Assembly (NCBI RefSeq): GCF_004118855.1
Contig: NZ_PDKF01000014.1
Location: 1-64,000 of the forward strand
Direction of reading: 5' to 3'
DNA: 64,000 nucleotides
Origin: Arcobacter sp. CECT 8983
GTDB lineage: Bacteria; Campylobacterota; Campylobacteria; Campylobacterales; Arcobacteraceae
The translations under genes were made by a program, and so were the position numbers. The notes under the pieces are model-generated. The model was not told the DNA's origin and ran no database searches. It worked only from the letters and a program-made list of their open reading frames with translations. Position 1 is the first letter of the stretch, and every line of letters begins with the position of its first letter. Shown piece by piece: positions 34,971-50,164 of the stretch.

Positions 34971-36286
34971 TGATTAAATATATTTTAGCAACACTTTTAA
35001 TTATAAATTCAAGTTTCGCTCTTGATTTAGAAAACCTATTAAATAGCGTAAAGCAAACATCAAATAAAGAAATTATTGAAGAAAAACAAAGATTAAAAGA
35101 GTTTATTGAGAATAAAAACCAGCAAAAAGCACTTTTACTTCAAGTACAAAAAGATTTAAGAATAGAAAATAATGAAACTAAAAGGTTAAAAAAACTTATT
35201 GAAGCAAATGAAGAAGTTTTAACTGTAAAAGAAGCAGAATTAAATGTAAAAATTGGTGATTTAGGAGAGATGTTTGGAAGTGTAAGACAAACTTCTGCTG
35301 ACTTTTTAACAAACTACCAAAGAAGTTTTACAGCATCACAATTTCCACAAAAAGAAGAGATTTTTACAAAATTCTCTAATTCTAAAAAATTACCAACTAT
35401 TGAAGAGTTAACTTCATTTTGGCACGCAATGTTAGATGAAATTATCCAAAGTGGAAAAGTAGCAACTTATAAAGCAAATGTTATTTTACAAAATGGTGAA
35501 AGAAATAATCAAGATGTTACTAGAATTGGTGTATTTTCTGCTTTTTCAGATGGAAACTTCTTAAAATATTCAAATGATATAAACTCGCTAATTGAACTAT
35601 CAACACAACCTTCATCAGCATATATTTCAGATGCAAAAGAGTTTGAAGAAAGTTCAAATGAGATAAAAACAGCATTAATAGATCCAACAAGAGGAACACT
35701 ATTTGAAATGCTTGGAAATAATCCTACTATCATGGATAGAATCAACCAAGGTGGAATTGTAGGATATATTATTATTTTACTTGGTGTTTTAGGTTTATTA
35801 TTTGCAGCTTATAAAATTGTATTCTTAAATTTAATTCATAAAAAAATCAAAAAACAACAAAAAAATTTAGAAAACTATGATGATTCTAACTCTTTAGGAA
35901 AGATTGCAGGAGTATTTTATAAAAATGTAAATAACTCTATCAATGATTTAGAAATCAAAATTGGTGAAGCAATTTTAAAAGAGACAAATCATATCAAAAA
36001 AGGTCAAAGCTTTGTTAAACTTCTTGCAGCAGTAACTCCATTACTTGGATTATTAGGTACTGTAACAGGTATGATTGCAACTTTCCAAGCTATTACTTTA
36101 TTTGGTACAGGTGACCCAAAACTTATGGCAGGAGGAATTTCAACTGCTCTTATTACAACTGTTTTAGGTCTTGTAACAGCTATTCCATTACTTTTTGCAT
36201 ATACATATATCTCTTCAAAAGCTGAAGCTATCGTATCTGTATTAGAAGAGCAAAGTATAGGAATGCTAGCAAAAACACTTAAATAA
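34970..36286 (+). CDS. ttpC: TtpC-like MotA/TolQ/ExbB proton channel protein with periplasmic extension
   Basis: A 438-residue ExbB-family protein. Signal peptide and ~240 residues of periplasmic sequence with coiled coil (about 20-90), a membrane helix near 265-285, and a C-terminal ExbB/TolQ domain with TPLLGLLGTVTGMIATFQAI and TALITTVLGLVTAIPLLFAY. In Vibrio this fourth TonB-system protein, TtpC, is needed for TonB2-dependent uptake. It pairs here with a short ExbB immediately downstream. Confidence 0.9.
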   Translation: MIKYILATLLIINSSFALDLENLLNSVKQTSNKEIIEEKQRLKEFIENKNQQKALLLQVQKDLRIENNETKRLKKLIEANEEVLTVKEAELNVKIGDLGEMFGSVRQTSADFLTNYQRSFTASQFPQKEEIFTKFSNSKKLPTIEELTSFWHAMLDEIIQSGKVATYKANVILQNGERNNQDVTRIGVFSAFSDGNFLKYSNDINSLIELSTQPSSAYISDAKEFEESSNEIKTALIDPTRGTLFEMLGNNPTIMDRINQGGIVGYIIILLGVLGLLFAAYKIVFLNLIHKKIKKQQKNLENYDDSNSLGKIAGVFYKNVNNSINDLEIKIGEAILKETNHIKKGQSFVKLLAAVTPLLGLLGTVTGMIATFQAITLFGTGDPKLMAGGISTALITTVLGLVTAIPLLFAYTYISSKAEAIVSVLEEQSIGMLAKTLK

Positions 36287-36287
36287 C

Positions 36288-36806
36288 ATGATTGATTTAT
36301 ATATAGATAACTTCTTTAACTTTTTTGATAAAGGTGGTTTTGTTTTATATATCGTATTTGCAATTGCCCTATTTCTTTGGGCATTGCTAATTGAAAGATA
36401 TATTTATATTAGCTTTGAATATAAAAAATATGCAAAAGCTTTAAAGCAAGAATTATCACAAAATGAATTTAATCAAAAATTTAAAGAAGAGATAAAAAAG
36501 TATTTAATTGAAGAATCAAATATCAAACTAAAATCAGGTCTTAGTTTTATAAAGACTTTGATTATTGTTTGTCCATTAGTTGGTTTATTAGGAACTGTTA
36601 CAGGAATGATTGAAGTATTTGATGTAATGGCACTAAGTGGTACAAGTAATGTAAAATCAATGGCAAGTGGTGTATCAATGGCAACTATTCCAACAATGGC
36701 TGGAATGGTAGTTGCACTTAGTGGAATACTATTTGAAAAGAAATTAGAATTATCAATAAAGTACCATACAGATAAGTTATATTTAGAAATATCAAAGGTT
36801 TTATAA
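36288..36806 (+). CDS. exbB: ExbB proton channel subunit
   Basis: A 172-residue ExbB of the short (Vibrio ExbB2-like) type with three helices (about 18-38, 82-105, 122-145) and the family core CPLVGLLGTVTGMIEVFDVM. Starts one base after the ttpC-like gene stop. With ExbD it forms the pentamer-dimer proton motor that energises TonB. Confidence 0.95.
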   Translation: MIDLYIDNFFNFFDKGGFVLYIVFAIALFLWALLIERYIYISFEYKKYAKALKQELSQNEFNQKFKEEIKKYLIEESNIKLKSGLSFIKTLIIVCPLVGLLGTVTGMIEVFDVMALSGTSNVKSMASGVSMATIPTMAGMVVALSGILFEKKLELSIKYHTDKLYLEISKVL

Positions 36807-36807
36807 A

Positions 36808-37212
36808 ATGAGAAGATTTTCACAAAAGAATAATAAAGAAGAAACAGAAATAAACTTAACTCCAATGCTTGATGTTGTTTTTATTATGTTAATTTTCTTT
36901 ATTGTTACAACCTCTTTTGTAAAAGAAGCAGGTATAGAAGTAAATAGACCAAGTGCAAAAACAAGTCAACAAAAAAGTGAAGCAAATATCTTAATAGCTA
37001 TTAAAAATAATGATGAAATTTGGATTGATAAAAGAATGGTTGATATTAGAGCAATTAGATCAAATATAGAAAGACTTAAAGCTTCAAATACACAAAGTAG
37101 TGTTGTAGTTCAATCAGATAAAGATGCAAGAACAGGTGTACTTGTTAAAGTTATGGATCAAGTAAGACTTGCTGGAATTACAAATATCTCAATTTCTACA
37201 CTAAAGAATTAA
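36808..37212 (+). CDS. exbD: ExbD subunit
   Basis: A 134-residue ExbD: cytoplasmic N-terminus, one helix with the essential proton-carrying Asp22 (NLTPMLDVVFIMLIFFIV), and a periplasmic ExbD domain ending in DQVRLAGITNISIST. Spacing of 1 base to both neighbours indicates strict translational coupling. Confidence 0.96.
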   Translation: MRRFSQKNNKEETEINLTPMLDVVFIMLIFFIVTTSFVKEAGIEVNRPSAKTSQQKSEANILIAIKNNDEIWIDKRMVDIRAIRSNIERLKASNTQSSVVVQSDKDARTGVLVKVMDQVRLAGITNISISTLKN

Positions 37213-37213
37213 A

Positions 37214-37840
37214 ATGAGAATATTAATAGCTGTAGTCGTATCTCTTGTTATCTCAATTGCGATGTTTGTATTGATGCAAAAAATGACATCAACTCAAAGT
37301 GAACATATAAAAAAAGAGACAAAACCTGTACAACTTACTTACTTAAGAGATAAAAAAGATACGGTTATTGAAAAGAAAAAAAGAGTTAAACCTAAAGAGC
37401 CAATTAAAAAAGTTGAACCAAAAAAGTTAGAATTAAAAACAAAATTAAATCAAGAACTAAATAAAAATGTAAAAATCAAGCCTTTGGATATTAGACAAAA
37501 TATTGATATTTCTTCAATCAACTCTTTAACAGGAGCTAAAATAAATATTGGTTCGAACCTTTTAGATGCAAATATGCTAACTGCACTTAAAAGAGTAAAT
37601 CCAAGATATCCAAGACGTGCAAAAATAAGAAGACAAGAAGGTTTTGTACAACTAACATTTAAGATTGATGCAAGTGGTTTTGTATCGGGGGTTCAAGTTG
37701 TTGATTCAAATCCTAAAGGTGTATTTGATGAAGCTTCAATCAAAGCTATAAAAAGATGGAGATTTAAACCTTCAAAAGATGATATTGCAGGAAGTTTTAA
37801 AAATGCAACTATCACATTTAACTTTAAATTAGCAAGGTAG
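37214..37840 (+). CDS. tonB: TonB energy transducer
   Basis: A 208-residue TonB: N-terminal anchor helix (about 4-22), a basic Lys/Pro linker (45-90; KPKEPIKKVEPKK), and the C-terminal TonB fold with NPRYPRRAKIRRQEGFVQL and ASIKAIKRWRFKPS. The anchor carries no clear SHLS His as in E. coli TonB, in keeping with TonB2-type proteins. It is the only TonB in the window and must serve seven receptors unless others exist elsewhere. Confidence 0.95.
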   Translation: MRILIAVVVSLVISIAMFVLMQKMTSTQSEHIKKETKPVQLTYLRDKKDTVIEKKKRVKPKEPIKKVEPKKLELKTKLNQELNKNVKIKPLDIRQNIDISSINSLTGAKINIGSNLLDANMLTALKRVNPRYPRRAKIRRQEGFVQLTFKIDASGFVSGVQVVDSNPKGVFDEASIKAIKRWRFKPSKDDIAGSFKNATITFNFKLAR

Positions 37841-37845
37841 TTATA

Positions 37846-39018
37846 ATGAAAAAAATATTAGTAATATTGTTTCTTTGTTTTTACAGCAGTGCATTTGCAA
37901 AAATGCATATGTCAAAAAGTACATACAATAGTTTAATGAAAGCTCAAAAACTAATAGAAAAAGAAGATTACAAAACTTCAAAAAAGATGCTTGAGGAGTT
38001 ATTAAAAGGTGATTCTAAAAATGATTATGAGAAATCATATATTTTGCAAACACTAAGTAATATATATATTCATAATGATAACTATAAAAAAGCTTCAAAA
38101 GCATATGAACAAATTATAAAATACAATGCTTTTGAAAAAGATAGTATTGATAAAATCAAATTTTCACTATCAAAAATCTATTTATCATTGGAAAAATATA
38201 AGCCAAGTATTAAACTTTCAACCAATCTTTTAAAGAGTAAAACTCTAAAGAAAAATGATGTTTACGAAACACTTATATTAGCTTATTATTATGATAAAAA
38301 ATACAAAAAAAGTATAGAGTATTCAAAAAAATATTTCTCTTCAGAAAAAAATATAAAAGAGTCATGGTATAAAATCCTTTATTCATCATATGTTGAAGTA
38401 AAAGATTATAATGGTGCAATAAAGACTATGGAGATCATGGTTAAACTTTTTAGTGATAATGAAAGTTACTGGGTTCAATTAGCTTCTTTATACCAAGAAA
38501 GAAATAGGTTAAAAGACTCTTTAGCAACACTAGAGTTAGCCTATAAAGAAGGTGTTTTAAAAAATAAAAATAATATTTTGTATTTTATAAATATCTCTTT
38601 ACAAAATGGAGTTTATAAAAAAGCAAATGACCTACTTACAAAGGCTGTTGAAACTGGTCTAATAGAAGAAGATAAAAAGATATTTGAACTACTTGTTTCA
38701 ACACATGTAAATGCAAAAGATATTGACTTAGCAATCAAAAAAATTGAAACTTCTAAATATAAAAATGAAAATAAATATAAACTAATACTTGCAAATTTAT
38801 ATTATCAAAAACAAGAGTTTAAAAATAGTATTTCAATCTTAGATACAATAAAAGCTAAAAGAAACTCTGAAACTGCTGGAGAAAAAGAGATTTTAAAAGC
38901 ACTATGTTATTATGAATTAGATGATAAAAAAACCTCTATTAAAATCTTAAAACAAGTTGTTAAAAACCCTTATCAAAAGAAAAGAGCAAGAAGTATTTTA
39001 AAAAGCCTTGAGAGTTAA
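37846..39018 (+). CDS. TPR-repeat periplasmic protein of the TonB operon
   Basis: A 390-residue protein with signal peptide (SSAFA before KMH) and a string of tetratricopeptide-like helices throughout (for example SYILQTLSNIYIHNDNYKKA and DVYETLILAYYYDKKYKKS). Vibrio TonB2 operons also end with a TPR protein whose role is not fixed, perhaps scaffolding of the complex. Five bases behind tonB and followed by a terminator. Confidence 0.88.
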   Translation: MKKILVILFLCFYSSAFAKMHMSKSTYNSLMKAQKLIEKEDYKTSKKMLEELLKGDSKNDYEKSYILQTLSNIYIHNDNYKKASKAYEQIIKYNAFEKDSIDKIKFSLSKIYLSLEKYKPSIKLSTNLLKSKTLKKNDVYETLILAYYYDKKYKKSIEYSKKYFSSEKNIKESWYKILYSSYVEVKDYNGAIKTMEIMVKLFSDNESYWVQLASLYQERNRLKDSLATLELAYKEGVLKNKNNILYFINISLQNGVYKKANDLLTKAVETGLIEEDKKIFELLVSTHVNAKDIDLAIKKIETSKYKNENKYKLILANLYYQKQEFKNSISILDTIKAKRNSETAGEKEILKALCYYELDDKKTSIKILKQVVKNPYQKKRARSILKSLES

Positions 39019-39040: not shown

Positions 39041-39676
39041 TTACTGTAATATTTCATAAAAAGAATTATCAACAACTATATTTTCATCATTAATATATCC
39101 TTTTTCTTTTATCTTTTTAATTGATCTAGATAGTGTCGCTGGTGCCATATTTAATTTATTTGCAATTTCAGAATGTTTTCTTTCAATTAATATCTTTGGA
39201 TTATCTCTTAAAAAAGCACATACTTTTTGTGTAGCATCATATACTAAGTTTCTATGAATTGTTTGTTCTAAACTTCTCATCTTTTTTATTAAAGAACCTA
39301 TAATATGAAAAGACAAGTTGGCATTACTTTGTAAAAGAGAAAGAAACACTTCTTTTTCTAAAACTGCTACTTTAGTTATATTACTTGTACTAATTGCAGT
39401 TGCAGGAAAAGCAGATGCTTGAAAAGTAGCCATTTCTGCTAGTATTGTAGGTTTACTAAAATTGTGAATAACTATTTCATTTCCCATAGTACCAGTTTTA
39501 TATAATTTTAGTTTACCTTGAAGCATAATATAAAAAGAGTTTGCAAAATCTCCCTCATAAAATAAGATATTATCTTTATTTAAAGTAACTATTTTACAAG
39601 ATTTATTTATTAGCTCAATTTCTTCTTCACTTAAAAGTCTAAAAAAGTCTATTTTATTTAATACATTTTTATACAT
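39041..39676 (-). CDS. Crp/Fnr-family regulator (NnrR/Dnr-like candidate)
   Basis: A 211-residue regulator with an N-terminal cyclic-nucleotide-type beta barrel (about 10-115; NILFYEGDFANSFYIMLQGK), a long dimer helix and a C-terminal HTH (HSEIANKLNMAPATLSRSIK). No N-terminal cysteine cluster, so it is not an oxygen-sensing FNR. Placed divergent from an nnrS-containing operon, it may be an NO-responsive NnrR/Dnr/NssR-type protein; that is inference. Start taken at ATG 39676; an upstream ATG (39745) would run through the promoter. TAATAT ends 5 bases before the ATG and no ribosome site is present. Confidence 0.82.
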   Translation of the reverse strand: MYKNVLNKIDFFRLLSEEEIELINKSCKIVTLNKDNILFYEGDFANSFYIMLQGKLKLYKTGTMGNEIVIHNFSKPTILAEMATFQASAFPATAISTSNITKVAVLEKEVFLSLLQSNANLSFHIIGSLIKKMRSLEQTIHRNLVYDATQKVCAFLRDNPKILIERKHSEIANKLNMAPATLSRSIKKIKEKGYINDENIVVDNSFYEILQ

Positions 39677-39709
39677 GAAAAATATTAACTTAATCACACT
39701 TAAGTTTTG

Positions 39710-39738
39710 TTGATTTAAGTCATTGATAATCACTATTA
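39710..39738. promoter_or_regulatory. Adjacent FNR-like and Fur boxes in front of the nnrS transport operon
   Basis: TTGATTTAAGTCAT (39710-39723) matches the FNR/NnrR model TTGAT-N4-ATCAA at 8 of 10 positions. It abuts TGATAATCACTATTA (39724-39738), which matches the 7-1-7 Fur model at 12 of 14 with a perfect left half. Together they suggest joint control by iron and by the divergent Crp/Fnr-type regulator. Confidence 0.6.
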
Positions 39739-39772
39739 TTTTCAATAAAATTACAAAAAAGTTAAGGTACTC

Positions 39773-40555
39773 ATGAATTTTATATTAAAAATATTAAAAG
39801 ACTTTCCTAAATATATCTGGAGTGGTTGGGGCTCAATTGCCTCTATTTTTCTATTTTTTGCACTATGGGATTTAGGGAATCAAATATATGGAAACCTTGT
39901 ATTGCCAAGTCCAAAAGAAACAATCCTAACATTAATTTCAATTATTTTAAATGATGAAACTATCACAAATATAGTAATTACTATAAAAAGAGCCTTCTTT
40001 GGATTTTTTATCTCACTTATTTTTGGTTCTTTATTAGGCTTATTAGCAGGTCTTTTTGTAACTGCTTCAATGATGAGTAGACCAATAGTTACTATTCTTG
40101 TAGGGATGCCTCCAATAGCTTGGATAGTTTTAGCAATGATTTGGTTTGGAATGAGTGATATGACAGTTGTATTTACAGTAGTTGTTGCTTCCTTTTCTAT
40201 TGTTTTTGTAGGAGCATTACAAGGGACTAGAACCTTAGAAGGTAACCTAAAAGAGATGGCTGATAGTTTCAATTTATCTTTTAAAATGAAAATGCTTGAT
40301 TTGTATTTTCCTCATATTTTCTCTTATGTATTTCCTGCTTGGATTAGTGCCTTAGGAATGTCATGGAAGATTGTAGTTATGGCTGAGTTACTTTCAGCAA
40401 ATGAAGGAATTGGAGCAAGCTTAGCAATTGCAAGAAGTCAATTAGATACACCAACTGCCCTAGCCCTTGTTTTAATTATGGTTGGAAGTCTACTTCTAAT
40501 TGAATATTTAATATTAGAGCCCATAAAAAGAGAGGTTGAAGCATGGAGAGATTAG
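39773..40555 (+). CDS. NitT/TauT-type ABC transporter permease
   Basis: A 260-residue inner-membrane permease of the nitrate/sulfonate/taurine family (six helices; EAA-like loop MADSFNLSFKMKMLDLYFPH). AAGG precedes the ATG. First gene of a tight six-gene operon: ATPase, NnrS, binding protein, TonB-dependent receptor and a small membrane protein follow. The link to a TonB receptor means the substrate is a large or scarce compound, such as a metal chelate, rather than taurine. Confidence 0.9.
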   Translation: MNFILKILKDFPKYIWSGWGSIASIFLFFALWDLGNQIYGNLVLPSPKETILTLISIILNDETITNIVITIKRAFFGFFISLIFGSLLGLLAGLFVTASMMSRPIVTILVGMPPIAWIVLAMIWFGMSDMTVVFTVVVASFSIVFVGALQGTRTLEGNLKEMADSFNLSFKMKMLDLYFPHIFSYVFPAWISALGMSWKIVVMAELLSANEGIGASLAIARSQLDTPTALALVLIMVGSLLLIEYLILEPIKREVEAWRD

Positions 40556-41292
40556 AACAATTATTAGTAAAAGATGTTTCTTTCTCTTTTGGTTTTAAAG
40601 AGATTCTAAAAAATATAAATTTTGAGTTAAAAAAAGGACAAGTAGTATCAATAGTTGGTCCAAGTGGTGGAGGGAAAACAACTCTACTTCATCTGTGTGC
40701 CAGACTTTTAACCCTTGAAGAAGGAAAAATAAAAAACAGTTTTAAAAGTTCAGCTTTTGCTTTTCAAGAAGCAAGACTTCTTCCTTGGAAAAATGTTCTT
40801 GATAACATTTGTTTAGGACTTCTTGCAAAGGGTGTAAAAAAAGCAAAAGCTCAAAGTTTATCAAAACAGATTGCTTTGAAATTTGGACTTGAACAAGAGG
40901 ATTTATCAAAATTTCCAAAAGATTTAAGTGGAGGAATGAAACAAAGAGTGTCTTTTGCTAGAGCTTTAGTTGTAAAACCTTCACTTCTATTTTTAGATGA
41001 ACCATTTTCAGCACTTGATATTGGATTAAAAAAAGAGCTACAAAGTTTACTTATTGAAACTATAGAAAAAGAAGAGCTTAGTATTTTATTTATTACCCAC
41101 GATTTAATGGAAGCCATTAAGTTAAGTGATGAGATTTTAGTTTTAAAAGCTCAACCAGTAGGTCATATAGTAAAAAGGTTTAAGTTTGATAAACCAAGGA
41201 GTTTAAGGGATGATAGCTTTGTATATGAACAAACAGCAAAACTTTTAAATGATGAATATATCATAAATACTTTTGAATTGGAACTAAAATAA
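40543..41292 (+). CDS. NitT/TauT-type ABC transporter ATP-binding protein
   Basis: A 249-residue ABC ATPase: Walker A GPSGGGKTT, Q-loop FQEARLLPWKNV (the QEaRLLPW form is typical of the TauB/SsuB class), signature LSGGMKQR, Walker B LLFLDEPFSALD, H-loop FITHDLMEA. Overlaps the permease by 13 bases and the nnrS start by one base. Confidence 0.93.
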   Translation: MERLEQLLVKDVSFSFGFKEILKNINFELKKGQVVSIVGPSGGGKTTLLHLCARLLTLEEGKIKNSFKSSAFAFQEARLLPWKNVLDNICLGLLAKGVKKAKAQSLSKQIALKFGLEQEDLSKFPKDLSGGMKQRVSFARALVVKPSLLFLDEPFSALDIGLKKELQSLLIETIEKEELSILFITHDLMEAIKLSDEILVLKAQPVGHIVKRFKFDKPRSLRDDSFVYEQTAKLLNDEYIINTFELELK

Positions 41293-42527
41293 TGGAAAAT
41301 AAAAAACAGTATGCAGCAAAACATTATGAGCATTATCCCCAAGGGAATTTTCCTATTTATTTAGCCTATGGTTTTAGACCTATATTTTTACTTCTTGCTC
41401 CATATATTGTAATTTCTATTATCCTTTGGAGTTTTACTTTTAGTGGCTTTATCTCTTTAGGTTTTATTGATAACTTGTTAACTTGGCATATATATGAAAT
41501 GTTGTTTGGAGTAGGAAGTGCTGGTATTATTGCGTTCTTTCTTACGGGAGTTCCAGAGATGTTTCCAGGGGCAGTGCCAATTATAGGGAAAAAACTTTTA
41601 TTTATAGTTTCTCTTTGGTTAGCTTCAAGAATTAGTTTCTGGTTTATAGCATTTTTAGGTATTCCTTTTGTTGCTTTTATCAACTTATTCTTAAGTTTAT
41701 ATATTATTTTACTTATTATAAAACCAGTATTTGCAGATGTAAAGAAAAAACATATATCTCTTGCTTTTAATCTTGTGGCACTTCTAATAATACAAGGAAT
41801 GTTTTTTGCAAGTATTGCAAAATATTTAAATATTGATTCATCATCTATTTTGATTTTAGCTTTAGGTTTTTTCATTGTTTTAATATTACTTGCATTAAGA
41901 AGAGTAAATATGGAAGCTATAAATGAGCTTTTAGAAAGTGAAAATATAGATGAGACTTTTTACTCAAGAGCACCAAGATATAATTTAGCTATTTTTTGTG
42001 TGCTTTTATATACACTTGTAGAGTTTTTCTTTCCTAATAATTCTATTTTAGCTTATTTAGCCCTTGCTTGCTTTGCAGCTATTTTAAATATCTCAAATGA
42101 TTTTATTTTAAAAGATAACAATATCTTAACTAAGCCCTTTGTCTTATATATGCTAAGTATTATTCTACTAACTTCTATTGCTTATGGCTTCTTAGCTTAT
42201 GATTATTTAAATGAAAATCTTTATGCCTTAAATCATTTTAGGCATTTTCTTACAACAGGAAGTTTTGGTCTTGTCTTTTATGTTGTAATGATAGTTGTAT
42301 CAACTATTCATACAGGAAGAAAACTCTTTACAAACCTTTGGTTAAACCTTGGGCTTATTTTAATAATTATTTCTACTTTTATAAGAGCATTTATTCCCTT
42401 TTATGAAGAGTATTCAATTGAAGCATATATTGTATCATCCATTTTATGGGCGATTCCATTTATTATTTATATGAAAATCTTTTTTCCATTTTTACTTTCA
42501 AAAAGAGCAGATGGAATAAAAGGTTAA
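41292..42527 (+). CDS. nnrS: NnrS-family heme-copper membrane protein
   Basis: A 411-residue polytopic protein (about 12 helices) of the NnrS family, with YGFRPIFLLLAPY near the N-terminus, HIYEMLFGVGSAGIIAFFLT and the ...HFLTTGSFGLVFYVVMIVVS / STIHTGRK region. NnrS proteins bind heme and copper and protect from nitrosative stress by limiting dinitrosyl-iron complexes. Here, it is embedded between ABC transporter genes and in front of a TonB-dependent receptor, which is unusual. Conserved His residues (HIYEM, HFRHF, HTGR) are available as ligands. Confidence 0.9.
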   Translation: MENKKQYAAKHYEHYPQGNFPIYLAYGFRPIFLLLAPYIVISIILWSFTFSGFISLGFIDNLLTWHIYEMLFGVGSAGIIAFFLTGVPEMFPGAVPIIGKKLLFIVSLWLASRISFWFIAFLGIPFVAFINLFLSLYIILLIIKPVFADVKKKHISLAFNLVALLIIQGMFFASIAKYLNIDSSSILILALGFFIVLILLALRRVNMEAINELLESENIDETFYSRAPRYNLAIFCVLLYTLVEFFFPNNSILAYLALACFAAILNISNDFILKDNNILTKPFVLYMLSIILLTSIAYGFLAYDYLNENLYALNHFRHFLTTGSFGLVFYVVMIVVSTIHTGRKLFTNLWLNLGLILIIISTFIRAFIPFYEEYSIEAYIVSSILWAIPFIIYMKIFFPFLLSKRADGIKG

Positions 42528-42539
42528 AAAAGGAAAATC

Positions 42540-43517
42540 ATGAAAAAAATCTTACTACTTAGTTTTATGTTTTTATTATCTCTTTTTGCAAAAGATGAAA
42601 ATAAAATTGTTGTTGCAGGTCCTTTTGCCACAGTATCACATCCTATTATACACATGATACAAAATGACGTATTAAAAGACTTGAACAAAAAAATAGAGTT
42701 TAAACTATGGAAAAACCCCGATGAGCTTAGAGCTCTTGTTTTAAACTCAAATGTTGATTTTATAGCCTTGCCAACCAATGTAGCTTCAAATCTTTACAAT
42801 AAAGGAGTTGATTTAAAACTTCTAAATGTCTCTATTTGGGGGATACTTGCGATGATAAGTAGAGATCCAAACTTAAAAACCTTAAAAGATTTTAAAGGTA
42901 AAAAAATTGCTCTTCCTTTTAGAGCAGATATGCCTGATATTATCTTTCAAGAATTAGCAAAAAAATATAGTTTAGATCCTAAAAAAGATTTCAAAATTCA
43001 ATATGTAACAAACCCTATTGATGCTATGCAAATGCTTATTTTAAGACGTATTGATCATGCACTTTTAGCAGAACCTGCTATTTCAATAGCTCTAAGAAAA
43101 ACCGGCTCTTTCCCTATAAATATCGTTGCTCCTGATTTATATAGAAGTGTTGACTTACAAAAAGAGTGGGGAAAACTTTTTAAAACAGAAGCTAAAATTC
43201 CCCAAGCAGGACTTGCATATTTAGGAAAGATAAAAGGAAAAGAAAAGCTTATCAATAGATTTTTACAAGAGTATGAAAAGTCTCTTCAGTGGTACAAGAA
43301 AAACCCAAAAAAAGCAGCTTCATTAGTTGTAAAAACTTTACCAATGCTTGAAGAAAAAGGTTTAGCTGATTCTATAAAGCATGTACAAATTCAAAGTGTA
43401 AATGCCTATGAAGCAAAAGAGGAGTTAGAGTTTTTCTTTAATGTTTTAAAAAATAGTAATGAAAAACTAATAGGTGGAAAACTGCCAAATGAAAATATAT
43501 ATTATAAATCAAACTAA
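42540..43517 (+). CDS. NitT/TauT-type ABC transporter substrate-binding protein
   Basis: A 325-residue periplasmic protein with signal peptide (1-17, SLFA before KDE) and the NMT1/SsuA-like fold: ELRALVLNSNVDFIALPTN, GWG-like ILAMISRDPNLKTLKDFKGKKIALPF and an RRIDHALLAEPA hinge motif. AAGG precedes the ATG, 12 bases after nnrS. The ligand pocket cannot be read from sequence. It is the partner of the permease and ATPase at 39773-41292 even though nnrS separates them. Confidence 0.9.
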   Translation: MKKILLLSFMFLLSLFAKDENKIVVAGPFATVSHPIIHMIQNDVLKDLNKKIEFKLWKNPDELRALVLNSNVDFIALPTNVASNLYNKGVDLKLLNVSIWGILAMISRDPNLKTLKDFKGKKIALPFRADMPDIIFQELAKKYSLDPKKDFKIQYVTNPIDAMQMLILRRIDHALLAEPAISIALRKTGSFPINIVAPDLYRSVDLQKEWGKLFKTEAKIPQAGLAYLGKIKGKEKLINRFLQEYEKSLQWYKKNPKKAASLVVKTLPMLEEKGLADSIKHVQIQSVNAYEAKEELEFFFNVLKNSNEKLIGGKLPNENIYYKSN

Positions 43518-43530
43518 AAGGAATAAATAA

Positions 43531-45585
43531 ATGAAAAAAAGTCTTATTTTATCAAGTGTGACAACAATTGTTTTAGCAGGAAATTGCTATGCAAATGCAG
43601 ATTTAGGTGAAGTTTTAGTTACAACTGCCACTAAAACTGAAAAAAATATAGATGGAGTTAGTGCTTCTGTTATTGTTGTAACAAAAGAAGATATTGAGAA
43701 AATATCTGCTTCAACATTAAAAGATGTATTTGAAAAAATTCCATCAATCAATGCTCAATATGCAAGGTTCCCCCACCCTAGTTCTAAATCAAAAGCTGCA
43801 ATCTCTATAAGAGGAGTTGGTGCAAATGGTACTCTTATGCTTTTAGATGGTAAAAGATTATCAGCTGAAACAGAAAACCCATATGAGATGAATAGAATCC
43901 CTGCTTCAATGATTGAAAGAATAGAGATAGTAAAAGGTTCAATGTCAACACTTTATGGTTCTGATGCTATTGGTGGAGTTATAAATATTATTACAAAAAA
44001 AATCACTGAAGCTCAAACTGCTGTTGATTTAAAGTATGGCTTAAATAAAAAAGGTGATGCAAAACAAAAAAACTTCAACTTTACAACTATTGGAAAGAAT
44101 GATTATTTTAACTATAAAGTTTTTGGTTCTGTTGTTGATGAAGAAGCTTTTACAAAGAAAAAAAATTATACTCAAACAGCAGTTAATCCTCAAACAGGTG
44201 CTGTTATAGGTGCAAATCCACAAAATGGTATATCTGGAAAAGAAGATATGACTTTTATTGATGATGCAACTGTTTTAAGCTTTGGAACAAGGTTTGAAAA
44301 AAACTTAACAGATAATCTTCTTGCAGGTATTGATTTTAATTACTTCAAAGAAGAAAGAGAAGGTATTTATTTAGGAAATGCTAAATTTGCAGGTGGTGGT
44401 CTTATAAAAAATACGCCTGTTTTATCAAAAGATAATAATAAAAGAATTGATGTTTCTACCGATTTTGAGTATCAAGTAAATAATGACTTAACTACTAATT
44501 TAAAATTTTATAGATCATATTATAAAAAAAGAAATGAAACTACTCCTGAAAATTTTGCAGGTCCAGTAAATAAAAAGTTTAGTGCAAATGTAACAATTGA
44601 TAATGTAGAATCAACAACAACTTACCTTCTAAATGATAGTAATATACTTACTTTTGGAGCTGAATACAGAAAAGAAACTAGAGACTCAAGTGCTATTAAT
44701 CCGAATCCTAGTTCAAGTGATTTTATTACAAAAGAAGTTACGTATAAATCAGTATTCTTACAAAATGAGATTGAAATCACAGACTCTTTAAATGCTACAC
44801 TAGGAGCAAGATATGACCATATTTCAAACGCAGATAGTAAAGTAACATTCCAAGCAGGTGCTGTTCAAAAGTTTAATGATAACACCTCTTTAAGAATTAA
44901 TTATTCTCAAGGTTTCAGAGCCCCTGATACAGCTGAACTTTTTGTTGTTGCTCCAGTTTTCAAAGATGGAAAAAGATTTGGTTCAGATGTAATTTTTGGA
45001 CCTAAAACTACTGCTTATGACTTAAAACCTGAAGAATCACAAAGTTTTGAAATAGCTTTATCAAATAACTTTAATAAACTTTCTTCTGAAATTGTTGCTT
45101 TTCATACAAATATCAAAGATAAGATTGAGTTAGTTTCATATGGTACCGGAGCAGGGAAATACTATACTTCAGAAAATTTAGACAAAGTTGAAATCAATGG
45201 ACTTGAATTAAGGCTTGATTATGATTTTACTAACTATTTAAATACAAACTTTAATTTAACATATTTAGATACTGAAGATAAGACCTTAAATAAGGAACTA
45301 ACATTCACTCCTGATATTTCTGCATCTTTAGGAATAGACTATAAAATAACAAATAGTTTAAACACAAATATATCTTTAAGATATATAGGTGAACAATATA
45401 CAAATAGTCAAAACAGTGAAAAAACTGAGGATTATACACTTGTAGATTTAGGACTTAATTACAAAATAAATAAAACTACAAGTTTTTATACAGGAGTAGA
45501 TAATATTTTTGATAAAGAAGTTGATGAAGAGTTAGGAGTAAATGCTGGTACGTATATGTATGTTGGGTTTAGGTTTAATTTTTAA
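43531..45585 (+). CDS. TonB-dependent receptor of the CirA/BtuB-like class
   Basis: A 684-residue outer-membrane receptor: signal peptide (1-22, CYANA), TonB box LGEVLVTTATKTEK, plug with RIEIVKGSMSTLYGSDAIGG followed by VINIITKK, barrel strands and C-terminal YVGFRFNF. The plug is close to the catecholate/colicin-receptor (CirA) and BtuB class rather than to the FyuA-like receptors downstream. Thirteen bases after the binding-protein gene and two before the next ORF, so it belongs to the nnrS operon and supplies its ABC transporter. Confidence 0.93.
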   Translation: MKKSLILSSVTTIVLAGNCYANADLGEVLVTTATKTEKNIDGVSASVIVVTKEDIEKISASTLKDVFEKIPSINAQYARFPHPSSKSKAAISIRGVGANGTLMLLDGKRLSAETENPYEMNRIPASMIERIEIVKGSMSTLYGSDAIGGVINIITKKITEAQTAVDLKYGLNKKGDAKQKNFNFTTIGKNDYFNYKVFGSVVDEEAFTKKKNYTQTAVNPQTGAVIGANPQNGISGKEDMTFIDDATVLSFGTRFEKNLTDNLLAGIDFNYFKEEREGIYLGNAKFAGGGLIKNTPVLSKDNNKRIDVSTDFEYQVNNDLTTNLKFYRSYYKKRNETTPENFAGPVNKKFSANVTIDNVESTTTYLLNDSNILTFGAEYRKETRDSSAINPNPSSSDFITKEVTYKSVFLQNEIEITDSLNATLGARYDHISNADSKVTFQAGAVQKFNDNTSLRINYSQGFRAPDTAELFVVAPVFKDGKRFGSDVIFGPKTTAYDLKPEESQSFEIALSNNFNKLSSEIVAFHTNIKDKIELVSYGTGAGKYYTSENLDKVEINGLELRLDYDFTNYLNTNFNLTYLDTEDKTLNKELTFTPDISASLGIDYKITNSLNTNISLRYIGEQYTNSQNSEKTEDYTLVDLGLNYKINKTTSFYTGVDNIFDKEVDEELGVNAGTYMYVGFRFNF

Positions 45586-45587
45586 TC

Positions 45588-45995
45588 ATGTACGAATTAA
45601 TTAAATTTATTCATATATCAACAATAATACTATTTGTTGGAACAGTTTATTTTAGAACCTTTGTTATTTTGAAAATAGTTTCATCTTTTCCTAAAGATGA
45701 AGCTATAAAAATACAACAAGCGATGGGAAATAAAGCTAGAAATATAATCAAAATCAATAATCTGATTTTAATTATATCAGGAATGTTATTATTGTTTTTA
45801 TATACAAATAATAGCTCTATAATATTACATTTAAAAGTTTTATTAGGATTAATACTAGTAGTAGGCTTTTATTTTGTTCCTATTCTTTTTAATAAATTTG
45901 AGGCAGACCAAAAGTTTAAAACTATTTTTCACTATATCTTTTTTTCACTATTAATGTTTGTAGTTCTCTTATCCCAATTTATCTATAGTTTTTAA
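45588..45995 (+). CDS. Small four-helix membrane protein, CopD/DUF2269-like
   Basis: A 135-residue integral membrane protein with four helices (about 5-25, 52-72, 78-98, 112-132). The opening LIKFIHISTIILFVGTVYFR and the His near the first helix recall CopD- and YphA-like small membrane proteins that bind heme or copper at histidines; sequence similarity is only general. Starts 2 bases after the receptor stop; last gene of the nnrS operon and followed at once by a terminator stem. Confidence 0.65.
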   Translation: MYELIKFIHISTIILFVGTVYFRTFVILKIVSSFPKDEAIKIQQAMGNKARNIIKINNLILIISGMLLLFLYTNNSSIILHLKVLLGLILVVGFYFVPILFNKFEADQKFKTIFHYIFFSLLMFVVLLSQFIYSF

Positions 45996-46035: not shown

Positions 46036-47007
46036 TTAATAATAATAGTTTCTTGTCTTCATAATCTCTTTAGGTCTTATGCCAAATCTTTTAAAAAAAG
46101 CATTAGAAAAATTTTGTGCATATGAATAACCTACTAATAAGGCTATTTCATTTATATTATATTCACTTTCTTTTAAAAGTATTTTTGCTTTTTGCATTCT
46201 TTCTTCTAATAAAAAAGAGTAAGGAGTGAGATTAAAGAATTTTTTAAATCCAAATTGTAATTTAAAATCATTCAATTTTACAATTTTTGAAAGTTCTTCT
46301 ATGCTAGGTGGTTTCTGCATATTTTCAAGTAAAATTTTTTTTGCTTTGTTTAAAGCTTTTATATCATATTGTGAGAATTTTATTCCACTTAAATCTTTGT
46401 CAGGTTGACTTTGTGAAAAAGTATTAAGACAATGGTAAATAACCTCTAAAGTTTTTGACTCAAGATATAATTGATTTAATTTTCCAACCATAGGACTTTT
46501 ATACATTTCATTTGCTAAAAATGACATTTTAATATCCATAAGAGAGTTATATAGCATTTTACTAAAGTTACTATTTTCAAGAGTGTTAAATATATACTCT
46601 TTAAAAGTATTATCAGGTAAAACTTTTTCTAAAAACTCTTTTTTTAAAATAAAAGACAACGCTTTATAAGAACTGTTTCGTGGTATTTCATGATAAATAC
46701 AATCTTGCGAAATTAAGTGCAGATTAATATATGACTTTTTTGAAGAAAATTTTTCTCCTGAAATATAACTTTTTAATTTCATTTCTCCTTCAAGACCTAA
46801 TGTAAAGGCAATACCATCAATTTTATGAATTGACTTTTGTTTGATTTCATTTTTTAATAAATAGTCACTTTTGTACAAAAATACTGTGTCGTTAAAATTA
46901 ATTTCATTTATATCAAACTTTCCATTGTAATTAAATTCTTTTTTGGTATTTAATATTTCATTTTCATCTGAGAAACCTTTAAAGTTTTTCCAAAAACCAT
47001 TATTCAT
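46036..47007 (-). CDS. AraC-family regulator, YbtA/PchR-like
   Basis: A 323-residue regulator with a ~200-residue N-terminal ligand domain and a C-terminal double HTH (PSIEELSKIVKLNDFKLQFG and INEIALLVGYSYAQNFSNAF, ending RPKEIMKTRNYYY). The NDFKLQFGFKKFFNLTPY pattern is typical of PchR/YbtA-type regulators that bind a ferric siderophore in the cytoplasm and activate its receptor gene. AAAGGAAA ribosome site. Divergent from a FyuA-like receptor gene at 47189. Two more regulators of this type follow at 52137 and 55362 in the same arrangement. Confidence 0.9.
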   Translation of the reverse strand: MNNGFWKNFKGFSDENEILNTKKEFNYNGKFDINEINFNDTVFLYKSDYLLKNEIKQKSIHKIDGIAFTLGLEGEMKLKSYISGEKFSSKKSYINLHLISQDCIYHEIPRNSSYKALSFILKKEFLEKVLPDNTFKEYIFNTLENSNFSKMLYNSLMDIKMSFLANEMYKSPMVGKLNQLYLESKTLEVIYHCLNTFSQSQPDKDLSGIKFSQYDIKALNKAKKILLENMQKPPSIEELSKIVKLNDFKLQFGFKKFFNLTPYSFLLEERMQKAKILLKESEYNINEIALLVGYSYAQNFSNAFFKRFGIRPKEIMKTRNYYY

Positions 47008-47118
47008 AAATTTCCTTTATTGATTTCAATAACTGTTATCATAATATAATTTTTAACATAAATTAATCTTTACTCTATTTTAGAATTAAAAAAAATATAT
47101 ATAAAATATTTTCAATAT

Positions 47119-47133
47119 TGATTTTTATTATTG
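47119..47133. promoter_or_regulatory. Fur-like sites between AraC and receptor genes
   Basis: TGATTTTTATTATTG matches the 7-1-7 Fur model at 10 of 14 positions, 55 bases before the receptor ATG. A second 10-of-14 candidate, CAATAACTGTTATCA, lies at 47027-47041 next to the AraC start. Weaker than other Fur boxes here. Confidence 0.4.
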
Positions 47134-47188
47134 TTATTAATAAAATTACACATTAAATTTGTTCATAAACATATAAAGGATATCAGAT

Positions 47189-49234
47189 ATGAAAAAGAAA
47201 TTACTGGTCAAAAGTATAATATTATCAACTATTACAAGTAGTTTTTTATTGGCACAAGACCAGCCACAAGAACTTGGAGACGTTACTGTTAGTGCGAATA
47301 AAATTGAAGAAAATATTCAAGAAGTTCCACAAAGTATTACAGTAATTAATAAAGAAGAGTTAGAAGAAAAAAGAATAACAGACATTGAGGGTGTGGTTGA
47401 TGAAATACCTAACATGAGTTTTGAAAGGGCTTTAAATGGAAGTTTATCTACTACCTTTAGAGGCTTATCAGGTTCAACTTTTACTCTTAGTAACCCCGTT
47501 GTTATTTATGTTGATGGTGTTCCATATTATGACAGATATGATTATAACCCTTCTTTTATAAATGTAGATCAAGTAGAAATTCTAAGAGGTCCACAAGGTA
47601 CACTTTATGGTAAAGACTCTACAGGGGGAGTTATAAATATTATTACAAAAGCACCTGAAAATGAGTGGCACGGAAGTATCAATGCTGAAGCTGGAAATTA
47701 TGGTTACACAAAGGGAGCCTTCAATACAAGTGGAGCACTCATAGATAATAAACTGTATGCGGGTATTAATGGTTCTTTAAAATCGGATGATGGTTGGCTT
47801 ACAAATAAATATTCAGGTATGAATAAAGATGCCAATAGAACAAAAGCAAAAAGAGTAAGTGCTTTTACAATTTATAAACCGACAGACAACTTATCAAGTA
47901 AACTTGTTATTTCTCATGATTATGACAAAGAGTATGGAAGAAGAGGTATAAATATTGATAATACACTTCCAATTAATGATTTAAAACGAGATGAGAATGT
48001 GAGTTTTGATGTTCCTTCATATATTACAAGAAAAACAAATTCACAAAGTCTAAAATTTGATTATGAATTAGAAAAAATGAAAATGGAATCTGTAACCATA
48101 CATAAAGATTTCGATATTGATATCGTTCATGACAGTGATTTTTTATCTGGAACCAGCAGTGATGGTTTAGCTTCACTTATTATTTCAGATGTCCAAACGT
48201 GGTCGCAAGAATTTAAATTAGCAAGTAAGAATCAAGATATAAAATGGGTAGCAGGACTATTTTTTGATGATGAAAAAAGAGAACAAGGTCCATATGGAAA
48301 TGCAAGTAGTAGAGGTACTGCAAATGTAGTCTCTACAATTGATACAAATACATATGCAGTATTCGGTCAAGTCATGATTCCTCTAAATGATTTTGAATTA
48401 ACTCTTGGAGGAAGATACCAAAGAATAACTAAAGATATTAAATCTGACTTTTACAACAGTTTTACAAATACTTCTAACAGTCTTCATCAATATGATGATG
48501 AAAAGTCATGGAGTACTTTCTTGCCTAAAATTGCTTTATCGTATAGTTTTAACAATGATTTAATGGCATATACTTCTGTTTCAAAAGGGTTTATTCCAGG
48601 TGGTTTCAATTTCTATTCCACAAGTGATAGCAGTGATTCTTCTTTTGAGCCTGAAAAATCTACAAATTATGAAATTGGAATAAAGTATCAACAAGATGAC
48701 TATACTATTAATGCAGCTATCTTTAGAATGGAAATAGAAGATTTACATGTATATAGTACTCTTCCTGGGGGTGTTTTTGTAACAGATAATGCACGAAAAG
48801 CTCACTCTCAAGGATTAGAAATTGATGGGAAATATTATTTAGGCAATAACTTTGAATTAACAGCAAGTGTAGGACTTATTAAAGCAAAATATGATGATTA
48901 TACAGATGCTAATGTTAATTATGATGGACAAAAGATTACTGGAACTCCTAAATTTACAACTTCAATAGGAATATCATATTTTGCTCAAGAAGGTCTTTAT
49001 GGAAGAGTTGGTCTTCAAGGAAGAGGAAAGACTGGTTTTAGAAGAAATGGCAAAGTTGAAGAAACTGACGGTGGTTTTACTGCAAATACAAAAATAGGAT
49101 ATAAAATCAATGATTGGGATGTTTATGGATATATTACAAATATTACAGATGAAGAATATGTTCTATCTTATGGTAGAGGTGTAGGATTTAATGAGCCAAG
49201 AAGATTTGGATTTGGCGTAAAATATACATTTTAA
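47189..49234 (+). CDS. FyuA-like TonB-dependent siderophore receptor
   Basis: A 681-residue receptor: signal peptide (to about residue 22, SFLLA), TonB box LGDVTVSANKIEE, plug motifs NPVVIYVDGVPYYDRYDY and VEILRGPQGTLYGKDSTGG, and a late-barrel pattern VSKGFIPGGFNFYSTS and EPEKSTNYEIGIKYQ that strongly recalls the yersiniabactin receptor FyuA. C-terminal FGVKYTF. Close paralogue of the receptors at 53209 and 56465. Divergent from its own AraC regulator; a DUF4198 gene follows 42 bases later. Confidence 0.93.
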   Translation: MKKKLLVKSIILSTITSSFLLAQDQPQELGDVTVSANKIEENIQEVPQSITVINKEELEEKRITDIEGVVDEIPNMSFERALNGSLSTTFRGLSGSTFTLSNPVVIYVDGVPYYDRYDYNPSFINVDQVEILRGPQGTLYGKDSTGGVINIITKAPENEWHGSINAEAGNYGYTKGAFNTSGALIDNKLYAGINGSLKSDDGWLTNKYSGMNKDANRTKAKRVSAFTIYKPTDNLSSKLVISHDYDKEYGRRGINIDNTLPINDLKRDENVSFDVPSYITRKTNSQSLKFDYELEKMKMESVTIHKDFDIDIVHDSDFLSGTSSDGLASLIISDVQTWSQEFKLASKNQDIKWVAGLFFDDEKREQGPYGNASSRGTANVVSTIDTNTYAVFGQVMIPLNDFELTLGGRYQRITKDIKSDFYNSFTNTSNSLHQYDDEKSWSTFLPKIALSYSFNNDLMAYTSVSKGFIPGGFNFYSTSDSSDSSFEPEKSTNYEIGIKYQQDDYTINAAIFRMEIEDLHVYSTLPGGVFVTDNARKAHSQGLEIDGKYYLGNNFELTASVGLIKAKYDDYTDANVNYDGQKITGTPKFTTSIGISYFAQEGLYGRVGLQGRGKTGFRRNGKVEETDGGFTANTKIGYKINDWDVYGYITNITDEEYVLSYGRGVGFNEPRRFGFGVKYTF

Positions 49235-49276
49235 ATAAAAACAAATCAATTATTATATATAAAATAAAGGACAAAA

Positions 49277-50164
49277 ATGAAAAAAATAAAAAAAGTTTTT
49301 TTAGCAACTGTTATTTTAAGTGTTAACACTTTATTAGCACATAGTTTGTGGGTTAACTCTTTTGAGTCATTCTCTCATAAACCAGGCCATGCAATAGTTA
49401 GTTTAGGATGGGGACATTCAATTCCTATTGATGATATACTTAATTCACCCAATGGAAAAGTTGTTATAGAAGATTTTTCTTTAATTAATCCAAAAGGAGA
49501 AAAAACACAATTAAAAATTCCTTCAAGTGAAACTGCAAAGGCAAGTAAAACAACTAAAGATTTTGATTTATATGATGCCGATATAGCTTTACAGAAAATT
49601 GCTCTTAAAAAAGAGAGTATAAAAGGAGTTTATATTCTTCAAGCAAATTCTAAACCTACTTTTTATACAAGTTATATAGATACAAAAGACAGACAAAGGT
49701 TAAAATTAAAACCAAAAAATGAGCTCAAAGATATTAAAAAAATATTGATGTCTATTAAGTATCAAGCCAATGCAAAATCTTACCTTACTTTAGACAAATG
49801 GACTGAACCAAAAGCTACAAACAAAGGACTTGAAATCATTCCTAAAAGTGACCTTTCTAATGTAAGAATAGGAGACCTTGTTGAGTTTGAAGTTTTATTT
49901 ATGGGGAAACCTTTAAATGCAACTGCTGCTAGTATGGATTATATAAAAGCTGCTAGCAATACTTTTGGTCAAAATGAAGGATTTGCTTTAATGTCATCTA
50001 TAGTAGAAGGAAAAGCTCAAATAAGAGTTCAAAGTGCAGGACAATGGATTGTATCTTGTACCCACAAAACAGCCATTACAAAAGATGGTCCATTAAAAGA
50101 GTTATATAATAAGGTGAATTATTCATTTAATGCCAGTAGCTTAACTTTTAATGTAAAAGAATAA
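49277..50164 (+). CDS. DUF4198-type periplasmic protein
   Basis: A 295-residue exported protein (signal peptide to about residue 21, LLA before HSLW) that matches the DUF4198 family: HSLWVNSFESFSHKPGHAI at the mature start, a middle domain with two beta-sandwich parts and a C-terminal ending FNASSLTFNVKE. Several mature-end histidines (HSLW, HKPGH, WGHS) could bind metal. Members accompany nickel/cobalt carriers and TonB receptors and are thought to handle metals in the periplasm. Same transcript as the FyuA-like receptor upstream; followed by a terminator-like palindrome. Confidence 0.8.
   Translation: MKKIKKVFLATVILSVNTLLAHSLWVNSFESFSHKPGHAIVSLGWGHSIPIDDILNSPNGKVVIEDFSLINPKGEKTQLKIPSSETAKASKTTKDFDLYDADIALQKIALKKESIKGVYILQANSKPTFYTSYIDTKDRQRLKLKPKNELKDIKKILMSIKYQANAKSYLTLDKWTEPKATNKGLEIIPKSDLSNVRIGDLVEFEVLFMGKPLNATAASMDYIKAASNTFGQNEGFALMSSIVEGKAQIRVQSAGQWIVSCTHKTAITKDGPLKELYNKVNYSFNASSLTFNVKE

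Follow-up and report, generated by a model that had tools for sequence, protein, structure and literature searches.

NnrS within a conserved NitT/TauT-type transporter and TonB-dependent receptor unit of Arcobacter, with a possible role in the import of an iron-bearing compound

NnrS proteins (PF05940) are known from the nitric oxide (NO) responses of denitrifiers and Vibrio; long called NO-response proteins, they have, to our knowledge, no known job. Among importers, the sulfate-ester system of Pseudomonas pairs an NMT1-type substrate-binding protein (SBP) with a TonB-dependent receptor (TBDR), and we know of no NnrS that accompanies PqqT/PqqU, a system for pyrroloquinoline quinone (PQQ) with an NMT1-type SBP. 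The nnrS gene is part of known NO regulons (PMC1274295), and NnrS has been described as a cuproprotein (PMC6769254). Here, we analyzed a 64,000-nucleotide stretch from Arcobacter sp. CECT 8983 (contig NZ_PDKF01000014.1; draft genome of 2.74 Mb), referred to as the window, in which nnrS lies between the genes of a NitT/TauT-type ATP-binding cassette (ABC) importer followed by a TBDR gene.

Import by TonB receptors and ABC transporters is itself known, and the new element is its unexpected fixed partner, NnrS. In the part of the open-access literature covered, a scope outside which most subscription papers fall, no description was found of a unit combining NnrS, a NitT-type transporter, and a TonB receptor, nor of the NnrS fold; no open-access paper named NnrS together with "heme-copper oxidase" and "superfamily", and no mention of NnrS was found in the accessible text of Arcobacter papers. 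As NnrS has a predicted fold and is tied gene-to-gene to a transporter and an iron-type and Crp/Fnr-type promoter, its role becomes directly testable.

Organization and conservation of the gene unit

The genes for the permease, ATPase, NnrS, SBP, TBDR, and a four-helix membrane protein are all on the forward strand (39773-45995), joined by overlaps or gaps of at most 13 bases in the list of open reading frames (ORFs). The ATPase gene starts 13 bases inside the permease gene, nnrS overlaps the ATPase gene by 1 base, and the nnrS-SBP, SBP-TBDR, and TBDR-four-helix gaps are 12, 13, and 2 bases, respectively. A first-pass annotation of this DNA had read the six genes as a single unit and had noted that nnrS interrupts the ABC set, lying between the ATPase and SBP genes; the ORFs and Pfam assignments confirmed both observations. 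The permease, ATPase, and NMT1 SBP domains all score above their Pfam cut-offs, which places the set among NitT/TauT-type importers, and no window protein reached the NCBIfam equivalog cut-offs for SsuABC, TauABC, or Ntr, all scores being far below.

The window SBP was searched against 298 genomes of the class, and 72 matches were obtained in 67 genomes. Of these matches, 28 (the main form, window's own included) showed at least 51% identity and 44 (the divergent form, found in genome families f2 and f3, which may be relatives of Campylobacter and Helicobacter) showed 28-35%. A scan of 84,980 species, one genome per species, retrieved 411 SBP relatives; among the best 80, which were kept, the nearest named relatives were from Arcobacter and Aliarcobacter (80% identity). 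Flanking DNA was fetched for 40 of the 72 matches (27 main-form and 13 of the 44 divergent), and gene orders were counted in a pool of 114 distinct loci, including seven (L130, L132, L137, L138, L143, L147, and L150) from bins not labelled Campylobacterota and possibly misbinned.

An NnrS gene was found within 6 kb of the SBP gene in 65 of the 72 matches. The 298 genomes hold 146 NnrS genes (in 118 genomes), 65 of which are accounted for by these matches, and more than half of them are therefore located elsewhere. Five of the seven matches lacking NnrS are duplicates, the first SBP copy of the same genome having NnrS beside it; the others are in G027 and G290. In the pool of loci, NnrS lies within 6 kb of the SBP gene in 97 of 114, and the ATPase gene and nnrS are adjacent in 94, overlapping by 1 base in 51 and by 4 bases in 23. 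The 17 loci without NnrS comprise 11 with less than 4 kb on one side and six with more. The first-pass annotation had allowed that the order might be unique to this strain or that nnrS might stand outside the unit, and neither is the case; the gene overlaps also point to co-transcription. In viral contigs, 13 stretches fit the NnrS pattern and none coded for a relative.

Two gene orders, read directly from the DNA, predominate: the Arcobacter type of the window (permease-ATPase-nnrS-SBP-TBDR) and a second one starting with an outer-membrane gene ([outer-membrane gene]-SBP-permease-ATPase-nnrS). In a few loci (e.g., L047, L048, and L144), the ABC and nnrS genes run in the opposite direction. 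Of the 114 loci, truncated contigs included, 25 have a TBDR within two genes of the SBP, 25 have a PF13557 outer-membrane channel there, one has both, 10 have a divergent-form receptor, and 53 have none of them. The four-helix protein occurs near the SBP in eight of the 114 loci, plus the window. As the outer-membrane gene is exchangeable and the four-helix protein is optional, the core of the unit is the SBP, permease, ATPase, and NnrS. This optional status weakens the role proposed earlier for the four-helix protein, and its earlier label "CopD-like" was loose, as no CopD family was matched in Pfam at E 0.01 and its only matches, UPF0093 and DUF1516, were both under the cut-off.

Some features of related loci were noted by eye or from single runs of genes. 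Main-form SBPs begin with an ordinary signal, and the divergent-form SBPs (L059-L071) with a twin-arginine-like one (RR motif). At L070:6765-13217, a paralogous SBP with a plug-less receptor has a BtuF/FecCD-like ABC set and also a methyltransferase-like gene as neighbors, without NnrS. At L086:7568-10863, a PF13557 channel, the four-helix protein, the SBP, and a NosL-domain protein lie in a row with no adjoining permease or NnrS. The features of the window are listed in Table 1; the TonB-type run upstream of the unit is likely the power unit for the local receptors. A DUF4198-like gene with a Fur box is also present elsewhere in the host genome (L200).

Table 1. Genes and promoter elements at and around the NnrS unit in the window.
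Feature	Position	Strand	Evidence and remarks
ExbB-like, ExbD-like, TonB-like, and TPR-like genes	34970-39018	+	Tight run just upstream; named by eye
Crp/Fnr-type regulator without FNR cysteines	39041-39745	-	ORF; Pfam cNMP_binding, 62 bits
FNR/DNR/HcpR-type box TTGATTTAAGTCAT	39710-39723	+	Conserved in relatives; centre about -41.5 from the predicted transcription start
Fur 7-1-7 box TGATAATCACTATTA	39724-39738	+	12/14 to consensus; directly after the FNR-type box
Candidate -10, TAAAAT	39746-39751	+	36 bases downstream of the FNR-type box start
NitT/TauT-type ABC permease	39773-40555	+	ORF; Pfam BPD_transp_1, 48.9 bits (cut-off 26.4); NCBIfam
NitT/TauT-type ABC ATPase	40543-41292	+	ORF; Pfam ABC_tran, 98.7 bits (cut-off 25); NCBIfam
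NnrS	41292-42527	+	Pfam NnrS (PF05940), 239.7 bits (cut-off 28); predicted 12-helix heme-copper-oxidase-subunit-I fold
NMT1-type periplasmic SBP	42540-43517	+	Pfam NMT1, 29.3 bits (cut-off 20.5); fold prediction
TonB-dependent receptor, CirA/siderophore-receptor-like	43531-45585	+	Pfam barrel and plug; NCBIfam; PDB comparison
Four-helix membrane protein, weakly HemJ (UPF0093)/DUF1516-like, optional	45588-45995	+	Pfam, below cut-off
Second TBDR and DUF4198 protein, with a divergent AraC-type regulator	46036-50164		Pfam

Composite promoter element and divergent regulator

The first-pass annotation had placed an FNR-like box and a Fur box in front of the unit; both were located, and the match of the latter to the 7-1-7 consensus was as given. 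They form a composite element, TTGAY-N4-RTCAA followed directly by the Fur 7-1-7 box (TGATAATnATTATCA) and then the -10, which is conserved before the core. Taken alone, the FNR pattern was no better in the window than in shuffled sequences (p 0.46), and the Fur pattern scored better, with 0 of 200 shuffles reaching it. Because the genome is so AT-rich, either box alone could be due to chance, and the joint conservation of both at a fixed spacing is the stronger evidence.

In the 200 bases before the first gene, the composite element, allowing mismatches, was found in 33 of 90 main-form units, of which a few look spurious, in none of 13 divergent-form units, and in 11 of 346 other upstream regions, a control that includes regions shared with divergent genes. 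A Fur match of at least 15/19 was found in 53 of the 90 main-form units vs. 51 of the 346 other upstream regions of the same loci. The exact-core pattern gave 44 distinct elements in the fetched loci, one inside another gene and 43 before the first gene of the unit (SBP in 28, permease in 13, and TBDR in two); as the loci were chosen for carrying the SBP, this count speaks for the place of the element, not its rarity. In L039, L041, L090, L100, and L108, the element stands between an upstream outer-membrane gene and the SBP gene, and the core therefore has its own promoter.

The distance from box to -10 was 35-37 bases in 42 of 45 elements, window included, and 36 bases in 31, although the -10 was taken as the best match within a short range and the spacing is thus partly fitted. 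With this spacing, the first box would be centred near -41.5, where class II activators bind, and the Fur box would cover the spacer between -35 and -10. The exact pattern TTGAYNNNNRTCAATGATAAT, derived from promoters of the operon itself, occurs in 10 copies in the 298 genomes, eight of them at the operon by coordinates, and its reversed control gave none among the matches listed. The other two copies (L196:5007-7222 and L197:3417-5330) precede an FmdE-like or DUF2269-like four-helix gene followed by a chemoreceptor gene, and a small regulon sharing the composite operator is possible. Among 15 fetched host loci with near-exact Fur boxes, four boxes lie before TBDR-like genes (BLAST), and two further loci are at Fur-family or FeoB-like genes (by eye). 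A conserved 7-1-7 operator over the promoter, as in a Fur regulon, is seen in the main form and not in the divergent form.

HcpR and DNR are Crp/Fnr-family regulators without the FNR cysteines, and TTGACnnnnGTCAA is a published HcpR consensus (PMC1274295). The regulator gene divergent from the unit codes for a protein of this family with only two cysteines (positions 50 and 176 of the listed ORF) and therefore no FNR-type cluster, as the first-pass annotation had stated. Its true start is likelier the ATG at 39676 than the listed TTG (39745), as the latter puts both boxes inside its first codons. An ortholog adjoins the operon in L032 alone among the mapped loci (82% identity), with weaker Crp-family matches nearby in L057, L064, L081, and L114; the gene was accordingly rejected as a fixed operon partner. 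Control by NO and iron, as had been proposed, agrees with the conserved putative iron-type and Crp/Fnr-type (anoxia or NO) boxes, for which Fur and a Crp/Fnr-type activator are the presumed binding factors.

Predicted folds of NnrS and the substrate-binding protein

The NnrS model (pLDDT 89.6) has 12 helices and is predicted to adopt the fold of heme-copper oxidase subunit I. The nearest match is CcoN of cbb3 oxidase (8smr_E; Z 30.1, root mean square deviation 3.3, 376 residues), followed by NorB (4xyd_A; Z 29.3, 360 residues), and the titles of the best 50 fold matches listed are all oxidases, NO reductases, or supercomplexes containing them. Three histidines never vary among 22 operon NnrS proteins: H66 lies in helix 2, and H318 and H340 lie at the start and end of helix 10, respectively. 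Judged by eye, 11 stand-alone NnrS proteins keep all three. We take H66 and H318 to be placed like the low-spin heme ligands of oxidases, by position and helix number, not by residue alignment. No histidine is invariant in helices 6-7, the place of the Cu-B histidines, in the 22 operon proteins.

The SBP model (pLDDT 91) is closest to 3hn0 of Parabacteroides (Z 32.2); PqqT (Z 27.7) and 3un6 (Z 26.8) are tied next, followed by SsuA and CmpA/NrtA, so that PqqT ranks second to fourth among solved structures. The invariant residues of the SBP include W57, D61, N80, D130, D133, and Y155. According to the first-pass annotation, a TonB receptor is an unusual partner for a NitT transporter. That view was too strong: PqqT, which binds PQQ in the periplasm, shares the SBP fold, and the sulfate-ester system of Pseudomonas, cited above, is a further case.

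Proposed function, rival explanations, and known systems

We tentatively read the unit as a dedicated importer of an iron-bearing compound, with NnrS as a b-type cytochrome partner and induction by low iron and a Crp/Fnr-type activator, and give this reading somewhat less than an even chance. An iron-bearing ligand is suggested by the Fur boxes, the CirA-like receptor (nearest to CirA and enterobactin receptors in the PDB list), and the TonB/ExbB/ExbD-like genes upstream, and control by anoxia or NO by the FNR-type box. The ligand, the electron transfer, and the heme content of NnrS are what we infer. The likeliest compound is a ferric chelate, which the cell would take up as a xenosiderophore. 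Under anoxia or NO, a Crp/Fnr-type activator at about -41.5 would switch the unit on, and Fur, bound between -35 and -10, would repress it when iron is plentiful. The chelate would cross the outer membrane through an exchangeable gate, the TonB receptor here and a PF13557 channel in a number of Sulfurimonas, and the SBP would deliver it to the permease and ATPase. NnrS, whose translation is probably coupled to that of the ATPase, would be a b-type cytochrome on a heme-copper-oxidase fold missing the oxygen- or NO-reducing copper site; taking electrons from the quinone pool, it would pass them to the incoming metal or, under NO stress, to the same iron, and the iron would be reduced and released. 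For a heme-bearing membrane protein in a chelate importer, metal reduction would be the simplest role. If this reading is right, nitrosative stress and the acquisition of metals are connected in Arcobacter, Sulfurimonas, and related bacteria.

In a stronger version, which is doubtful in our view, NnrS is a stripped cytochrome of the heme-copper-oxidase fold that belongs to an ABC metal-chelate importer, either as a fixed subunit or as its electron donor, and the importer is switched on only at low iron and under anoxia or NO. If true, respiratory machinery has been turned into a part of a nutrient transporter, and the stand-alone NnrS of denitrifiers would protect iron under NO by the same chemistry.

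Several observations weigh against an iron-chelate importer with a cytochrome partner. None of the divergent-form units has a Fur match of 15/19 or the composite box (0/13 for each), and the ligands of the main and divergent forms may differ. The exact composite pattern is found in eight of the 67 SBP genomes, the other 59 having no exact copy, and in many relatives the second half-site is AATATCA instead of ATTATCA, so that a different dyad-binding regulator may act there. The host genome has 17 sites with near-exact 7-1-7 boxes vs. 15 for the reversed control, which makes the Fur box alone weak. The titles of the listed solved SBPs of this fold name PQQ, sulfonates, bicarbonate, nitrate, and thiamine and its precursors, with Zn or Gd in two, and no ferric chelate. 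Where a PF13557 channel replaces the TonB receptor, a small compound that diffuses is a better fit than a rare chelate. For NnrS, Foldseek alone gave one match at E ≤0.001 (3mk7, E 6e-4), PF05940 was the sole Pfam match at E 0.01, with no PF00115, and a sequence proof of the oxidase relationship failed, as hhalign probabilities were 0.8 and 0.2 percent and the PDB profile search returned no match. The adjoining copper genes and copper-receptor-like proteins of some loci, described next, count on the same side.

The first of the alternatives, though an unlikely one, is that the unit imports copper or one of its chelates to supply nitrous oxide reductase and oxidases, with NnrS as a copper or heme membrane partner. 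The plug-less receptors before the divergent-form SBP (L064:6812-8704, L068:7266-9113, and L070:6765-8618; no plug match in Pfam) have TonB-copper as their best NCBIfam model (E 1e-51 to 2e-53), and OprC entries are weakly matched by the window TBDR (E about 1e-5). The SBP gene is followed by one for a NosL-domain protein in L086 and, after one unassigned gene, by two plastocyanin-like genes in L147, the unit abuts NosL and ABC-2 permease genes in L051, and NosZ is 7.7 kb from the operon in G167. These receptors, however, score 176-182 bits against the TonB-copper cut-off of 472 (TIGR01778), and the window TBDR only 52, which argues against the copper ligand that the first-pass annotation had considered. 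In the SBP, none of the residues conserved at ≥90% is a Cys, Met, or His; at 75%, 25 operon TBDRs share no Cys or His, and Met only at the start and M138. The Fur boxes in main-form promoters also speak against copper. Co-conservation with denitrification genes had been suggested as a check; for NosZ, it holds class-wide (48 of 67 SBP genomes vs. 40 of 231 others, not corrected for kinship) but not in the host's own family (3 of 10 with the operon vs. 3 of 11 without). NosZ as the sole purpose of the unit was rejected, as no NosZ match was found in the host genome. The description of NnrS as a cuproprotein, cited above, remains on the side of copper.

An importer of heme or another tetrapyrrole, in which NnrS and the four-helix protein would handle heme, is improbable, and the evidence from the receptors is divided. 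The TonB-hemin model ranks first or second in NCBIfam for the TBDRs of the window, L050, and L151, and the plug histidine (FPH) is kept in 17 of the 25 operon TBDRs, window's included; the histidine between FRAP and the NPNL-like stretch is absent from 24 of the 25, again including that of the window, which scores 207.3 bits for the TonB heme receptor (TIGR01785; cut-off 316.85). The heme signature of the receptor is therefore at most half present: the plug histidine may or may not be a heme ligand, and the FRAP-NPNL region argues against the heme suggested earlier. The Fur boxes and the weak HemJ likeness of the four-helix protein would fit heme. At L041:9077-18706, a run of CobN-family, DUF2149, and MotA/ExbB genes leads into TonB-ExbB-ExbD-TBDR-SBP-ABC-NnrS, and we take its CobN-family gene to be HmuS-like. 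However, CobN is in the gene run of one of 114 loci, and the composite promoter lies between TBDR and SBP in L041, L090, and L108, so the CobN and TBDR genes may be a separate unit.

Equally improbable is the import of an organic compound needed under anoxia, either a cofactor or a small anion (PQQ-like, thiamine precursor, or sulfonate), with NnrS only co-regulated via NO. It would agree with the nearest SBP folds, with PF13557 channels, which suit small organics, and with the place of nnrS in known NO regulons. It would leave the Fur boxes without a reason, the overlap of the ATPase and nnrS genes is hard to explain by co-regulation alone, and the unreached TauABC, SsuABC, and Ntr cut-offs do not favor it. 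A chance neighborhood of unrelated genes can be dismissed even though each family is common by itself, since order, overlaps, and promoter element are conserved across several genera, which already contradicts it.

The iron-chelate importer with a cytochrome partner thus remains our tentative reading. It retains from the first-pass interpretation the tight unit, the iron-type and Crp/Fnr-type boxes, and the uptake role, while heme, copper, the four-helix protein, and the fixed Crp partner found weak support or none.

Each known system resembles the unit in part. NosA/OprC copper receptors are the nearest NCBIfam model for the three divergent-form receptors, which differ from them in the missing plug match and the low scores; the window receptor is CirA-like instead. 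PqqT/PqqU shares the NMT1-type SBP fold and an outer-membrane TonB gate, but the SBP identity is 16% and the window TBDR falls well short of the PqqU cut-off. SsuABC, TauABC, and NrtABC have the same permease, ATPase, and NMT1-type SBP, whereas the unit has in addition a membrane protein, an outer-membrane gate, and an iron-type box, and reaches no equivalog cut-off. With the NnrS family of denitrifiers and Vibrio, the window protein shares the PF05940 match, the three histidines common with stand-alone NnrS, and a Crp/Fnr-type box; unlike them, it is encoded within the operon of an ABC transporter that has a Fur box in front. CcoN and NorB, finally, share with NnrS the predicted 12-helix fold and histidines in helices 2 and 10, and NnrS differs from them in having neither a sequence link nor conserved Cu-B histidines.

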